NCBI GenBank assembly: GCA_017408885.1
Contig: JAFQTT010000009.1
Location: 124,001-188,000, forward strand
Reading direction: 5' to 3'
Length of the DNA: 64,000 nucleotides
From: Methanocorpusculum sp.
GTDB taxonomy: Archaea > Halobacteriota > Methanomicrobia > Methanomicrobiales > Methanocorpusculaceae
Positions 13,241-36,430 of this stretch are shown in pieces. The number at the start of each line of letters is the position of its first letter. The first letter of the stretch is position 1. The notes under the pieces are model-generated. The model saw only the letters and a list, made by a program, of their open reading frames with translations. It made no database searches and was not told the origin of the DNA. A program made the position numbers and the translations under genes.

Positions 13241-14118
13241 CAGGAGATCATTCACACCACGGACATATGCATGACCATGAGCACATGCACGGAGACGGGG
13301 TGATTCACTCCCACCCGCACTCACACGAAGAAAATCATGAGCACCACTCAGACTGCCCCGGAGAGGCAATCCTGAAGGTGGACGGAGTTGAGTTCGGATA
13401 TAAGAGTTTCAAGGTTTTGGAGAATATCGAGGTTGGTGTTTCCAGAGGTGAGATTCTTGCAATCCTTGGGCCAAACGGTGTTGGAAAATCGACACTTCTT
13501 CGCTGTATGAATATGATTCTGCGCCCGCAAAAAGGGGCAGTCATGGTTGACGGCGAGGAGCTTTCGAAGATGTCGCCAAATGAGATTGCAAAACATGTTG
13601 GATATGTTGCGCAGAGAAGCGAAGCTGCCCGCATGACTGTGTTTGATTCGGTGCTTCTTGGACGAAAGCCGCATATCGGCTGGAGACTGACGGTTGATGA
13701 TTATTCGATGGTGGAGGATGCTCTTGTCAAATTCGGACTTTCGGAGATGCAGCTTCGCTATATTGATGAGATTTCAGGAGGAGAGCTTCAGAGGGTTTGT
13801 GTATGCCGCGCTATTGTGCAGGAGCCGTCAGTTCTTCTGCTTGATGAGCCGACATCTGCTCTTGACCTGTCGCGTCAGATGGAGATTTTGCATCTTATCC
13901 GGCATGTTGTTGACCAGCATAACTGTGCAACAATTATGACGATGCATGATTTGAATCTCGCGCTGAGGTTTGCGGATAGATTTGTGTTTATGAAGGGCGG
14001 AAAAATCTATGCGGCATGTGATAAGTGGGGAGTTACGCCGGAGCTGATTTCGGATGTGTATGGAATCGAAGTGGATGTAATTTTCCATAACGATTTGCCA
14101 GTTGTGATTCCGAAGTGA
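13237..14118 (+). CDS. ABC transporter ATPase with histidine-rich N-terminus
   Basis: ATPase of the FepC/BtuD type, 293 residues. Residues 44-290 form a standard ABC domain: Walker A GPNGVGKST at 78-86, the Q-loop VAQR, the signature ISGGELQRV, Walker B LLLDEPTSALD and the switch His in MTMHD. The first 40 residues are extra: about 15 are His, in runs such as HSHHGHMHDHEH, ending in a Cys. This could hold Ni, Zn, Co or Fe and act as a sensor or store (inference). The start is GTG at 13237, overlapping the permease stop; an AGGGAGGAG ribosome site lies just upstream, inside the permease gene, supporting this start and so the extension. Confidence 0.93.
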   Translation: MTGDHSHHGHMHDHEHMHGDGVIHSHPHSHEENHEHHSDCPGEAILKVDGVEFGYKSFKVLENIEVGVSRGEILAILGPNGVGKSTLLRCMNMILRPQKGAVMVDGEELSKMSPNEIAKHVGYVAQRSEAARMTVFDSVLLGRKPHIGWRLTVDDYSMVEDALVKFGLSEMQLRYIDEISGGELQRVCVCRAIVQEPSVLLLDEPTSALDLSRQMEILHLIRHVVDQHNCATIMTMHDLNLALRFADRFVFMKGGKIYAACDKWGVTPELISDVYGIEVDVIFHNDLPVVIPK

Positions 14119-14210: not shown

Positions 14211-14268
14211 GGTTGATGCTCTTTTGCTGTTTTTCCGTCGGGCTAAAAACAGCAAAAGAGCATCAACC
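14211..14268. repeat. Perfect 24-bp inverted repeat
   Basis: Arms 14211-14234 and 14245-14268 are exact reverse complements over 24 bases, separated by the 10-base loop CCGTCGGGCT. The stem starts GGTTGATGCT. It lies between two further GC-rich hairpins and between convergent genes. This is longer than needed for a terminator. Confidence 0.75.
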
Positions 14269-22014: not shown

Positions 22015-23202
22015 ATGCGAGTATTCTTTATAGGATTCGGACAGGCAGGCGGCAAACTGGTTGATATGTTCCTTGCTCAGGACAAGAAAACAGGCGCCAA
22101 CAGTTTCCGCGGTATTATCATTAACACTGCCCGCACCGACTTAATGGGTGTCAAAAACATCCCGATGGAAGACCGTCTTTTAATCGGTCAGACAAAGGTG
22201 AAAGGACACGGAGTTGGAACTGATAATGTAACCGGTGCAAAGGTTGCAGCAGATGAAATCGATACCATCATCAATGCAATCGACCGCCGCGGCACTCACG
22301 ACATCGATGCATTCGTTGTCTGTGCCGGTCTTGGAGGCGGAACCGGTTCCGGAGGAGCTCCGGTTCTCTGCCGTCACTTAAAACGCATCTACCGCGAGCC
22401 GGTCTATGCATTAGGTGTCATTCCGGCACCGGAAGAAGGACGTCTCTACTCCTTAAACGCAGCACGCAGTCTGTCCACGCTGGTCAATGAGGCTGACAAC
22501 GTCATTGTCTTCGACAACAGTGCATGGAAGAATGACGGAGAAAGCGTGAAGAGTGCATACGAGCGCTTAAACGAGGAAATCGTCCGCCGTTTCGGTGTTC
22601 TTTTCCGTGCAGGAGAGGTCACCAAATACGGCGTTGGAGAAATGGTTGTCGATTCCAGTGAAATCATCAACACCTTACGCGGCGGAGGTATCTCTTCTGT
22701 AGGATATGCAATCAGCGAAGCAATTCCGAAGGGAAAGAGTGCTGCAAAGTCCGGAGGAGGTTTATTCGGCGGCCTTCGCAAGAAGGAAAAGGCAGAGCCG
22801 CACGTTGACATCACCGGAGATGACAAGTCGGCAAAAATCATTGGTCTCGTCCGCCGTGCAATGCTTGGACGTTTAACCCTTCCGTGCGACTACTCAACTG
22901 CTGAGCGTGCACTCGTTCTTGTTGCAGGTCCGCCGGCTGAGCTCGACAGAAAAGGTGTTGAGAAATCCAAGAGCTGGGTTGAAGAAAACATCGCAGGAGT
23001 TGAGGTTCGCGGTGGAGATTATCCGGTTGACAGCGGATATGTCGCAGCAGTTGTTCTTCTTGCATCCATTGGAAACGCACCGCGTATCCGCGAGTTAATG
23101 GAGCTTGCAAAGGAAGCAAAAGAAGAGGTTGCAAAGTCACGCGAGCGTGCAGCAGCAGTATCGATGTTTGAAGACAGCGAGGTAGACCCGCTGTTCGAAT
23201 GA
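22015..23202 (+). CDS. CetZ-family tubulin-like GTPase
   Basis: Tubulin/FtsZ-superfamily GTPase of the CetZ group, 395 residues. CetZ proteins form dynamic cytoskeletal filaments and in haloarchaea control cell shape and motility rather than division. The nucleotide loop GLGGGTGSGGAP is at residues 105-116, the opening FFIGFGQAGGKLVDMF matches CetZ, and an internal Gly/Lys-rich stretch (about 243-268, SGGGLFGGLRKKEK) looks like a surface loop. The C-terminal tail is acidic (FEDSEVDPLFE). A gene for a secreted, membrane-anchored protein starts 13 bases downstream and is probably co-transcribed. Confidence 0.9.
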   Translation: MRVFFIGFGQAGGKLVDMFLAQDKKTGANSFRGIIINTARTDLMGVKNIPMEDRLLIGQTKVKGHGVGTDNVTGAKVAADEIDTIINAIDRRGTHDIDAFVVCAGLGGGTGSGGAPVLCRHLKRIYREPVYALGVIPAPEEGRLYSLNAARSLSTLVNEADNVIVFDNSAWKNDGESVKSAYERLNEEIVRRFGVLFRAGEVTKYGVGEMVVDSSEIINTLRGGGISSVGYAISEAIPKGKSAAKSGGGLFGGLRKKEKAEPHVDITGDDKSAKIIGLVRRAMLGRLTLPCDYSTAERALVLVAGPPAELDRKGVEKSKSWVEENIAGVEVRGGDYPVDSGYVAAVVLLASIGNAPRIRELMELAKEAKEEVAKSRERAAAVSMFEDSEVDPLFE

Positions 23203-27567: not shown

Positions 27568-27960
27568 TTAATTCTTTTTTACATACCGATGCAGAAGAAC
27601 TCCATCCGCATTGATTCTCTCGCCGCCGTTCATGTAAAGTTCAAATCCTAAGTGATAGACAATTAAGTCACAGTTCATTTTTTGTGCGAGGGAGATTAAT
27701 GCCGGGACAATCTCAACACCCGGTCTTATTGCATAGATGACGTCTGCATTTTCGTAGAGTGAGTAATCCGGCTCAACGCAGTCATCAACAACTGCCGGAA
27801 CATCTGTATTATATGTGTGCACATCTGTGCAGAGAACAGGAATTCCTGCCTCAAGCAGAATCTTTGCAGCAACTGTTTTTCCGCCAAATCCTACCTCCAC
27901 TGCTGATGTGTAGTGGTCTCTTATGTAGTTTCCAACGGCTGTTTCGATATGGTAAATCAT
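27568..27960 (-). CDS. UPF0146 family protein
   Basis: A 130-residue archaeal protein with a minimal Rossmann-like core: AVEVGFGGKTVAAKIL then VLCTDVH and VIYAIRPGVEIVPALISLA. This matches the UPF0146 group, which resembles a SAM-dependent methyltransferase core but has no proven activity. It is divergent from the archaemetzincin gene. Confidence 0.8.
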   Translation of the reverse strand: MIYHIETAVGNYIRDHYTSAVEVGFGGKTVAAKILLEAGIPVLCTDVHTYNTDVPAVVDDCVEPDYSLYENADVIYAIRPGVEIVPALISLAQKMNCDLIVYHLGFELYMNGGERINADGVLLHRYVKKN

Positions 27961-28014
27961 GAGAACTCGTTAAGGTACATTTATGTCCCTTTGCAGAGAA
28001 AATATCTATCGATT

Positions 28015-28620
28015 ATGGGGGTACATATTTTCTGGGATTCGCGAGTGCCAATCGGCCTCTCGCGTCCGGTCACAGAGGAGCTCTCAGCAGTTCTCGGCAC
28101 ACCGGTTTCACGGATAGACAACGCTATCTTCCCCCTCGAAGGATACGATCCGGCACGCTGTCAGTATGATGCGGTAAAGATTTTAACCAAACTCGATATG
28201 TTCCGCAGACGCCGTGCAGACCTTTTCAAACCGCAGGATATGGATTTGGACTTTTTCAACCGTTATAACCATATTTATGAAAAGGTCCTGCTGATTACAC
28301 CAGGAGATTTATTTGCTCCAAAGACAAGTTTTGTCTATGGTCTGGCACACTTAAAACTTGGTGCTGCTGTTGTGTCTTCCTTCCGCCTGACAAATGAGTA
28401 CTACGGACGCCATCCTGATGACGATGCATTAATTGACCGTCTTGTGACCGAAGGCGCTCACGAGATTGGTCACTTGTATGGTCTTGAGCACTGCGATAAT
28501 CCGGGATGTATTATGTACTGCCCAAACAATCTGGATGATTTAGACAGGAAGCGCAAGTATTTCTGCGGAAGATGCAGGCTTGACCTTGATTCGCGTATCA
28601 GAGGAGGGTTTGAGTATTGA
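28015..28620 (+). CDS. amzA: Archaemetzincin (AMZA-type zinc protease)
   Basis: A 201-residue metalloprotease of the archaelysin family. The extended zinc motif is complete: HEIGHLYGLEH (His149, Glu150, His153, His159) followed by Cys160, Cys165, the Met-turn Met167 and the pair Cys184/Cys187, which hold a second zinc. Its substrate in archaea is unknown. I use ATG 28015; the frame extends upstream but with no family-like residues. The next gene, a cas1 homologue, starts at a TTG that overlaps this stop (TTGA), after a GAGGAGGG ribosome site inside this gene, so the two are likely co-translated. Confidence 0.93.
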   Translation: MGVHIFWDSRVPIGLSRPVTEELSAVLGTPVSRIDNAIFPLEGYDPARCQYDAVKILTKLDMFRRRRADLFKPQDMDLDFFNRYNHIYEKVLLITPGDLFAPKTSFVYGLAHLKLGAAVVSSFRLTNEYYGRHPDDDALIDRLVTEGAHEIGHLYGLEHCDNPGCIMYCPNNLDDLDRKRKYFCGRCRLDLDSRIRGGFEY

Positions 28621-29537
28621 TTCCGTGGGTTACTGTCTGGGGATTTGGAGCAGACATTAATGTCCGGGGGAACTCTCTTTTCGTGAGGGAAAAAGGAGCT
28701 AGTGAAGCGAAGAGGCATTCGCTTTCAGATGTTTCACACCTGATTGTTGCAGGAGATAATGTTTTACACACTGCAGTTATTTCGAAGTGTGCAAAACATG
28801 AGATTCCAATCTCTTTCTTTGATGTTCACGGAAAGGCAGAAGGTTCTCTTTTCAAATCCGAGAAGCCGAGGCTTTCTTTTGCTCAGGATTCGATTCCAAA
28901 ACATGCCTTTGCACTTTCTGCGGCAGAGAATGCGGCAGATTCACGCATGCGTTTTCTGCATGAGTTAGCAGAAACCCATGAGAATCTGTTCTATCAGGGA
29001 GAATTTGATTTGCTCACCCATGCAAGGTCTGAGTTTGAGTATCTGATTACTATTCCTGAACTCAGCCGCGGTTATCTTTTAACGAAGAATATGTATTACG
29101 AGATTCTCTCACGCGTTGTCCCAAGAAAGCTTGGATATGTACGCCGCGTGGAAGGGGCGTCTCCTGATGCAGTCAACGCGTTATTTTCAAGAGGCTATGC
29201 TGTACTTTATGCAACAGTTGCCGCCGCGTGCACTGGTGCAGGTCTTGATTTGAACAAGGGTTCTCTTTACGAGAAGAGCGGAGCTTGCGTGTATGATATA
29301 ATGGAAGCGGCTCTTGTTCCAATGGTTGACAGAGCCGTTATCAAAACAGCAGCGTCAGGTCTTCTTGATGACTGCTCGATGTCATCAACGCGCTGTATTC
29401 TCTCTGAAGATGCAGTGTCTTTCTTTTCAAAAGAGCTTGCGGCATCCATTGACCGCAAGGCAATTGATGAGAATGTTTTAGCTTATGCAAAAGCGGTTGA
29501 AGATGGGGTTTGTGTTTCGTACCACTATCCGGCATGA
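28617..29537 (+). CDS. cas1: Solo Cas1-family protein with altered active site
   Basis: A 306-residue homologue of Cas1, the integrase of CRISPR adaptation. The N-terminal beta domain (about 1-75, with SHLIVAGDN and ISFFDVHGK) and the helical catalytic domain (about 95-295) are visible. Of the metal-binding triad, Glu179 (RRVEGAS) and Asp227 (VYDIME) are kept, but the His expected in the GFLH-type motif is Tyr218 (GSLYEK). No cas2, other cas gene, CRISPR array, PolB or terminal repeats are in the window, so it is neither a normal CRISPR locus nor a casposon. Stand-alone Cas1 groups are known in methanogens. Start is TTG overlapping archaemetzincin. Identification rests on motif reading. Confidence 0.85.
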   Translation: MIPWVTVWGFGADINVRGNSLFVREKGASEAKRHSLSDVSHLIVAGDNVLHTAVISKCAKHEIPISFFDVHGKAEGSLFKSEKPRLSFAQDSIPKHAFALSAAENAADSRMRFLHELAETHENLFYQGEFDLLTHARSEFEYLITIPELSRGYLLTKNMYYEILSRVVPRKLGYVRRVEGASPDAVNALFSRGYAVLYATVAAACTGAGLDLNKGSLYEKSGACVYDIMEAALVPMVDRAVIKTAASGLLDDCSMSSTRCILSEDAVSFFSKELAASIDRKAIDENVLAYAKAVEDGVCVSYHYPA

Positions 29538-29601: not shown

Positions 29602-30777
29602 ATGTTACTTATCGCCCTCGCCGGAAAGCCAAACTGCGGCAAATCAACGTTTTTTAAATCGTTAACGCTTGCAAATGTTGAGATTGCAAACTACCCGTTC
29701 ACAACTATCGATGCAAACAAGGGTGTTGCCTATGTGCGTTCTAAATGCCCGTGCAAAGAACTCGGAGTTTCGGACACCTGCACCCAGTGTGTTGACGGTG
29801 TTCGCTTTACCCCTGTTGAACTTTTAGATGTTGCAGGTTTAGTTCCTGACGCACACTTAGGACGCGGTCTTGGAAATCAATTCCTGGATAATCTCCGTGA
29901 GGCTGATGCAATTATTCAGGTTGTTGATGCATCAGGCAGTACTGATGCGGAAGGAAATCCGGTCGATGTTGGAACCCGCAATCCGAAAGAGGATGTTGAG
30001 TTCCTGCGTTATGAGTTTGCTATGTGGATGGCCGGAATTATCCAGAAGCATCTTCCGCGTCTTGTCCGTCAGGCACAGAACAGAGAGCCGGTGTTAATTG
30101 AGCTCTTGGGAGGGGCACTTGCAGGTCTTCGCATCAGTCCGGTTGAAATCCGCGAAGCTGTTGATGAGTGCGGTATTAATCTTGCAAAGGCAACCGAAGA
30201 GGAGATTGCAGAGCTCGCGGCAGTTCTTCTCCGCGTTTCCAAGCCGATGATTATTGCGGCAAACAAGGCTGACCAGGCATCTGAAGAGAATATTGCAGCG
30301 CTTAAGGAGATGGGGGCTGTTCCAACCATTGCCGCGGGAGAACTCGCATTAAAGTCTGCTGCATCTGCAAAGCTCTTATCTTATCTTCCGGGAGACTCTT
30401 CATTTGCTCCGGTTGAGGGAGCAAAGCTTTCCGCCCCGCAGGTGAAAGCCTTGACAATGATTGCCGAGAATATGAAAAAGCTTGGAAACACCGGTGTTCA
30501 GGAGACGTTAAACCGCGTTGTCTTCGATGAGCTTGGTATGATTATCGTCTATCCGGTAGAAGATGAAGGAAAGTACTGCAACGCAAAAGGTGTTGTTCTG
30601 CCGGATGCTCTGCTTCTCCCGAAGGGAACTACCCCGCGCGATTTAGCATTCCGCATCCACACAGATATCGGAAACGGATTCTTATATGCAGTTGATGCAA
30701 AGAGTAAGATGCGCATCAAAGATTCAGCAGAGCTGAAGATGGGAGATGTCATCAAGATTGTGAGCACCGCAAAATAA
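29602..30777 (+). CDS. YchF/Ygr210-type translation-associated GTPase
   Basis: A 391-residue Obg-family NTPase related to eukaryotic Ygr210 and bacterial YchF, which bind ribosomes. G1 is GKPNCGKST (residues 8-16), G3 is DVAGLVPDAHLG and G4 is NKAD; a TGS domain ends the protein. An insert near residues 48-65 holds four Cys (KCPCKELG and TCTQC), a zinc-ribbon-like feature found in archaeal and eukaryotic members. It starts 64 bases after cas1. Confidence 0.92.
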   Translation: MLLIALAGKPNCGKSTFFKSLTLANVEIANYPFTTIDANKGVAYVRSKCPCKELGVSDTCTQCVDGVRFTPVELLDVAGLVPDAHLGRGLGNQFLDNLREADAIIQVVDASGSTDAEGNPVDVGTRNPKEDVEFLRYEFAMWMAGIIQKHLPRLVRQAQNREPVLIELLGGALAGLRISPVEIREAVDECGINLAKATEEEIAELAAVLLRVSKPMIIAANKADQASEENIAALKEMGAVPTIAAGELALKSAASAKLLSYLPGDSSFAPVEGAKLSAPQVKALTMIAENMKKLGNTGVQETLNRVVFDELGMIIVYPVEDEGKYCNAKGVVLPDALLLPKGTTPRDLAFRIHTDIGNGFLYAVDAKSKMRIKDSAELKMGDVIKIVSTAK

Positions 30778-36186: not shown

Positions 36187-36430
36187 GAAACACGAATCCA
36201 CACTAATCAAAGCGAATCGCGTGCCTATTCACGGCTCATTTCACTGCTTATCGCGGTGAGCCGCGGCACGCTTGCGCCCTCGCAGTCGGCTCGGGCGTAA
36301 TGTTGATTCTCGAATCTTTCCGCCCGAGCCGACTGCGAGGGCGCAAGCACGTTTAGGCGCGTAGGCGATAAGCCGATTACGCGCCGTTAAGAGCGTGCGA
36401 TTTGTGTTGATTAGTGTGGATTCGTGTTTC
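36187..36430. repeat. 244-bp cloverleaf-like palindromic element
   Basis: The ends form an exact 24-bp inverted repeat (36187-36210 and 36407-36430). Inside are three further hairpins: left (CGTGCC 36220-36225 / GGCACG 36265-36270, with nested CGGCTCA/TGAGCCG), a central exact 28-bp repeat (36270-36297 / 36321-36348), and right (GGCGCGTA 36356-36363 / TACGCGCC 36378-36385). Folded, this gives a four-way, tRNA-shaped secondary structure. It sits between the uppS end and the end of the convergent regulator gene and reaches its last codon. It has no open frame of note. It may be a MITE-like unit, a structured RNA or a strong terminator. Confidence 0.8.

Follow-up and report, generated by a model that had tools for sequence, protein, structure and literature searches.

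Cas1-solo group 1 has been described as a set of Cas1 homologues that is restricted to the Methanomicrobiales, lies off CRISPR loci and has no mobile-element context (Makarova 2013; Krupovic 2014, PMC4046053). Neither signs of horizontal transfer nor a member with a full active site were reported for it (PMC4046053), and an earlier suggestion was that the group is vestigial (reported in PMC9755687). The existence of solo Cas1 groups in methanogens, stated in the initial annotation of this DNA, and the lack of complete active sites in this one are thus already covered by published work (PMC4046053). Casposases, which make up Cas1-solo group 2, keep all four catalytic residues (PMC4046053). For the archaemetzincin AfAmzA the zinc motif HEXXHXXGXXHCX4CXM and a Cys4 site were described, with X17 quoted before the CXXC (PMC3427221).

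We analyzed a window of 64,000 nt, by which we mean the whole stretch of Methanocorpusculum DNA, and concentrated on a pair formed by an archaemetzincin gene, amzA, and a cas1-like gene (Table 1). The stop end of amzA and the TTG start of the cas1-like gene share 4 nt, and GGAGGG is present inside amzA; the overlap and the sequence resembling a ribosome binding site had both been read correctly in the initial annotation. Profile matches assign both products firmly to their families. The amzA product matched Peptidase_M54 in Pfam (PF07998, 71.6 bits) and archmetzin in NCBIfam (NF033823, 161.3 bits, cut-off 145). The cas1-like product matched Cas_Cas1 in Pfam (PF01867, 112 bits, cut-off 22.3) and cas1 in NCBIfam (83.8 bits, cut-off 71.7). 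A regular expression found the zinc motif of AmzA intact as HEIGHLYGLEHCDNPGCIM-X16-CGRC, and the HEXXHXXGXXHCX4CXM motif of archaemetzincins (M54) is present. The zinc motif and the Cys4 site are thus shared with AfAmzA (PMC3427221), whereas the spacing before CXXC is X16, identical in all relatives examined, and not the X17 quoted there. AmzA is an ordinary archaemetzincin orthologue.

Table 1. Features of the amzA-cas1 region, in positions of the window.
Feature	Positions	Strand	Basis
UPF0146 gene, divergent partner of amzA across most of the order	27568..27960	-	PF03686, 68.6 bits
amzA, archaemetzincin zinc protease, 201 aa (ATG at 28015, stop TGA 28618-28620)	28015..28620	+	PF07998 (Peptidase_M54), NF033823
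GGAGGG, Shine-Dalgarno-like, inside the amzA 3' end and ahead of the TTG start of cas1	28603..28608	+	read from sequence
cas1-like gene, Cas1-solo group 1, 306 aa (TTG start 28617, stop 29535-29537)	28617..29537	+	PF01867
Tyr153 codon, catalytic Glu position (E. coli Cas1 E141)	29073..29075	+	alignment with active-site-intact Cas1; HMMER alignment to 4n06
Tyr218 codon, catalytic His position (H208); L006, the 96%-identical sister, has His	29268..29270	+	alignment
Codons 227-230, with the acidic residues Asp227 (D218 position) and Glu230 (D221 position) retained	29295..29306	+	alignment
YchF-related GTPase gene, right-hand neighbour of the cas1-like gene in Methanocorpusculum only	29602..30777	+	NF007171, 533 bits; neighbour clustering

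Among named records, the closest to the window are from Methanocorpusculum. The genome to which the window belongs (90.5% complete, 13 contigs) encodes exactly one Cas1, the product of the cas1-like gene, and neither Cas2 nor RAMP Cas proteins were found in it. Arrays were looked for between positions 14000 and 44000 of the window. In this range no family of CRISPR-like repeats was detected, and no inverted repeats or element ends bracket the cas1-like gene. The cas2 and effector genes of a canonical CRISPR cas1 are missing nearby, and the flanking genes are housekeeping genes according to Pfam, NCBIfam and neighbour clustering, with neither the PolB nor the terminal repeats of a casposon. The gene thus shares with Cas1-solo group 1 the lack of linkage to CRISPR-cas genes (for arrays, within 14000-44000). 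The initial annotation had excluded a CRISPR or casposon locus, and our results agree with it; a second cas1 in a CRISPR-Cas locus elsewhere, which it had named as refuting, was not found in this 90.5% complete genome. Casposase (PDB 6opm) and the window protein both represent the Cas1 fold outside CRISPR. However, casposases have four catalytic residues and belong to elements that carry PolB and terminal repeats, and none of this applies to the gene in the window. A mobile or viral origin of group-1 Cas1 was considered and rejected, as no relative was found among viral contigs or phage records. The plasmid collection likewise contained no group-1 relative; its matches were annotated CRISPR Cas1 proteins with an identity of up to 28%.

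Several other features of the window were recorded. An intergenic near-complete palindrome of about 244 nt (36187-36430), with arms of 34 nt (91%) and 31 nt (97% complementarity), has a second, 92% identical copy at G000:C8:2166-2409 and is a MITE-like repeat. At 14211-14268 there is an inverted repeat whose 24-nt arms match perfectly around a 10-nt loop. The gene at 22015-23202 encodes a CetZ tubulin-like protein (PF21011, 246 bits) and is followed by the gene for a 368-aa protein without Pfam match.

Homologues of the window protein were found in 217 of the 232 genomes of the order. The gene was present in 133 of the 135 genomes that are at least 90% complete and in all 27 single-contig genomes. 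When profiles were searched against 393 genomes of the phylum, no score fell below 319 bits in Methanomicrobiales, and none exceeded 163 bits elsewhere. In the tree, group 1 was monophyletic with 100% bootstrap and a long stem. These homologues thus form a clade of Methanomicrobiales in its own right, matching the description of group 1. By its order-wide distribution and the published description, the cas1-like gene is assigned to Cas1-solo group 1 as a Methanocorpusculum member. Nothing distinguishes the window protein from the group; within it, aromatic residues prevail at the two lost catalytic positions in the Methanocorpusculum clade, which also has amzA upstream. Duplicate group-1 copies were noticed in one genome (G143), one of which seems to match the locus of another genome (G144) and may be contamination.

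Many genomes of the order also have canonical Cas1 genes, as would be expected if the protein were a regulatory subunit of CRISPR adaptation that pairs or competes with an active Cas1. However, the group persists where there is no other Cas1, both in the genome of the window and in 6 of the 27 single-contig genomes, and the group-1 gene sits outside cas loci. We consider such a subunit improbable.

The columns of the active site were set by alignment to Cas1 proteins from the same order with an intact canonical quartet, and a HMMER alignment between the profile of the group and 4n06 (A. fulgidus Cas1) gave the same Glu column. All 27 comparison Cas1 sequences from outside the group read E-H-D-E/D. 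The window protein has the incomplete quartet Y153-Y218-D227-E230, as known from Cas1-solo group 1, instead of the Glu-His-Asp-Asp/Glu of a canonical integrase; at the second acidic position stands Glu230, in agreement with most of the canonical relatives that were sampled. Glu179 and Asp227 had been named as the remaining catalytic residues. This holds for Asp227 but not for Glu179: the catalytic Glu column falls on Tyr153, and Glu179 is part of the RRVEGASPDAVNA loop preceding DPVNA and belongs to the least conserved columns (rank 281 of 306). Glu148 was rejected as the catalytic Glu, since this would require five extra residues within helix 146-167, which is predicted to run without a break, and MAFFT and HMMER both give residue 153. 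The exchange of His for Tyr218 is real in the window sequence, where the catalytic His column falls on Tyr218 and not elsewhere in the alignment. It is, however, not the defining change: among close relatives residue 218 is His in L006, L002 and L005 and Tyr in L003 and L004, and across the group H, Y, F, N, R, S and K occur.

Of 91 group members, 86 have lost the catalytic Glu and show H, F, Y, S, Q, A or D in its column. Among the 306 columns the Glu column ranks only 174th and the His column only 197th in conservation. Position 227 is D or E in 72 of 72 aligned sequences and position 230 is mostly E or D. In Methanocorpusculum aromatic residues are found throughout the Glu column and mostly so in the His column; outside this genus the commonest quartets are HHDE (9) and HHDD (8), together 17 of 53 aligned sequences. 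A group-1 Cas1 with the full Glu-His-Asp-Glu quartet was encountered at L064:6470-7396, so in this larger sample the published absence of complete active sites does not hold without exception.

Given the retained D227, the mostly acidic position 230 and these 17 sequences, a changed metal site is possible. The protein would then be a re-specified metalloenzyme, using the His-His-Asp-Asp/Glu site outside Methanocorpusculum as a modified nuclease or for another phosphodiester reaction, and Methanocorpusculum would later have swapped both His-equivalents for aromatic residues. The prevalence of HHDE and HHDD, the acidic residue at 227 in every aligned sequence and the scaffold residues R177, D184, N187 and Y194, kept as in canonical Cas1, are in line with this. 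However, the residues at the two His positions vary freely (R, N, S, K, Q, F, T, A), also between relatives, as reflected in their ranks, and we regard a re-specified enzyme as rather unlikely.

In pairwise comparisons of close relatives, dN/dS was about 0.06-0.14, which shows purifying selection. Eleven residues are invariant in 72 sequences (H41, G46, G128, E129, E148, R151, Y160, Y161, E162, R166 and D238), and W4 does not vary either, with a gap in one sequence. W4, H41, E129, E148, R151, E162 and R166 are conserved in the group but not in canonical Cas1. The AlphaFold (AF2) model of the cas1-like protein is confident over its whole length (pLDDT 92.7), so the claim that the fold stays intact agrees with the prediction. 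Its best PDB match in Foldseek was A. fulgidus Cas1 4n06 (TM 0.80, E=4.9e-18). With this protein and other CRISPR Cas1 integrases it has in common the whole-length fold, the DPVNA loop, Asp227 and Asp238; it differs from them in lacking the catalytic Glu and His, Cas2, an array and effector genes, and identity is ~18%.

A lost active site and the published view of the group as 'probably vestigial' (as reported in PMC9755687) would both suit a remnant of a CRISPR cas1 that is decaying and in the course of being lost. The low dN/dS and the presence of the gene in nearly all good genomes (133/135; 27/27 single-contig) show that it is not a relic, and the invariant residues and the predicted fold also speak against decay. 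This reading, which is already contradicted, is in our view very improbable; the conserved non-immune function that the initial annotation had suggested is likelier.

The adjacency of amzA and cas1 is confined to Methanocorpusculaceae. In Methanocorpusculum the genes overlap by 1-8 nt in 23 of the 24 loci in which both are visible and are separated by 28 nt in the remaining one. In the sister genus amzA lies about 77-100 nt upstream of cas1 in all 8 genomes, and the acylphosphatase gene is still convergent on the downstream side. In other families amzA is as widespread as cas1, both being near-universal, but in none of the 61 loci sampled was it detected next to cas1. The proposed search for the pairing across Methanomicrobiales thus succeeded within Methanocorpusculaceae and failed in the other families. 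There, amzA and UPF0146 form a divergent pair in 9 of the 10 loci sampled. Outside Methanocorpusculum, 58 of 66 cas1 loci have acylphosphatase as a convergent neighbour. The divergent UPF0146/amzA pair (27568-28620 in the window), kept across most families, makes UPF0146 a stronger candidate than cas1 for a functional partner of amzA; a second amzA paralogue without adjoining UPF0146 was noticed at L202 (G045:C1:1466000-1479000).

Because the pairing occurs in one family only and the two blocks are separate elsewhere, the coupling is the product of rearrangement and compaction. Most simply, two conserved blocks came to lie side by side in the ancestor of Methanocorpusculaceae, and the gap between them closed later; the arrangement in the sister genus looks like the intermediate. 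The overlaps and the constant adjacency in the sister genus would also be expected from a functional module, in which AmzA would act on the Cas1-like protein by processing or regulation, or the two would share a pathway. However, both genes are near-universal yet apart in other families, where amzA keeps UPF0146 and cas1 keeps acylphosphatase, and the sister genus speaks for a transition. We therefore hold a module to be quite improbable, and the idea of amzA as a meaningful partner was not sustained. The overlap may couple expression of the two genes, which does not imply a shared function.

Our preferred explanation, held with about even confidence, is that a single-copy, vertically inherited Cas1 homologue of Methanomicrobiales kept its fold, lost its metal centre and took on a housekeeping role, which we propose to be that of a non-catalytic DNA-binding scaffold. 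We infer that catalysis is absent and that the protein, probably as a Cas1-type dimer, would recognize DNA with branches or ends in the course of repair or replication; the overlap with amzA would be a rearrangement specific to Methanocorpusculaceae, followed by compaction. DNA binding and dimerization are assumed by analogy from the Cas1 fold, and DNA binding is perhaps the most plausible non-catalytic role. The retained D227, the mostly acidic position 230 and the 17 sequences with HHDE or HHDD count against this explanation, as does the full quartet at L064. Outside Methanocorpusculum the neighbours of group-1 cas1, identified from sequence as acylphosphatase, a TPR-like protein and a phosphohexomutase, gave no functional clue; the missing hint of DNA repair appears to count against it as well. 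More tentatively, and with somewhat less than even confidence, Cas1-solo group 1 could be an order-wide core protein with a new function, for example a DNA repair or replication factor, built on W4, H41, E129, E148, R151, YYE160-162 and R166 and independent of CRISPR and the old metal site.

The vestigial view of Cas1-solo group 1 does not fit these data. The gene is near-universal and strongly constrained, it is variable at the catalytic positions but frozen at other residues, and it therefore looks like a relative of the CRISPR integrase domesticated for a non-immune task. A group formerly set aside as probably vestigial thus looks like a clear case of domestication, and its invariant residues are concrete targets for mutant tests.
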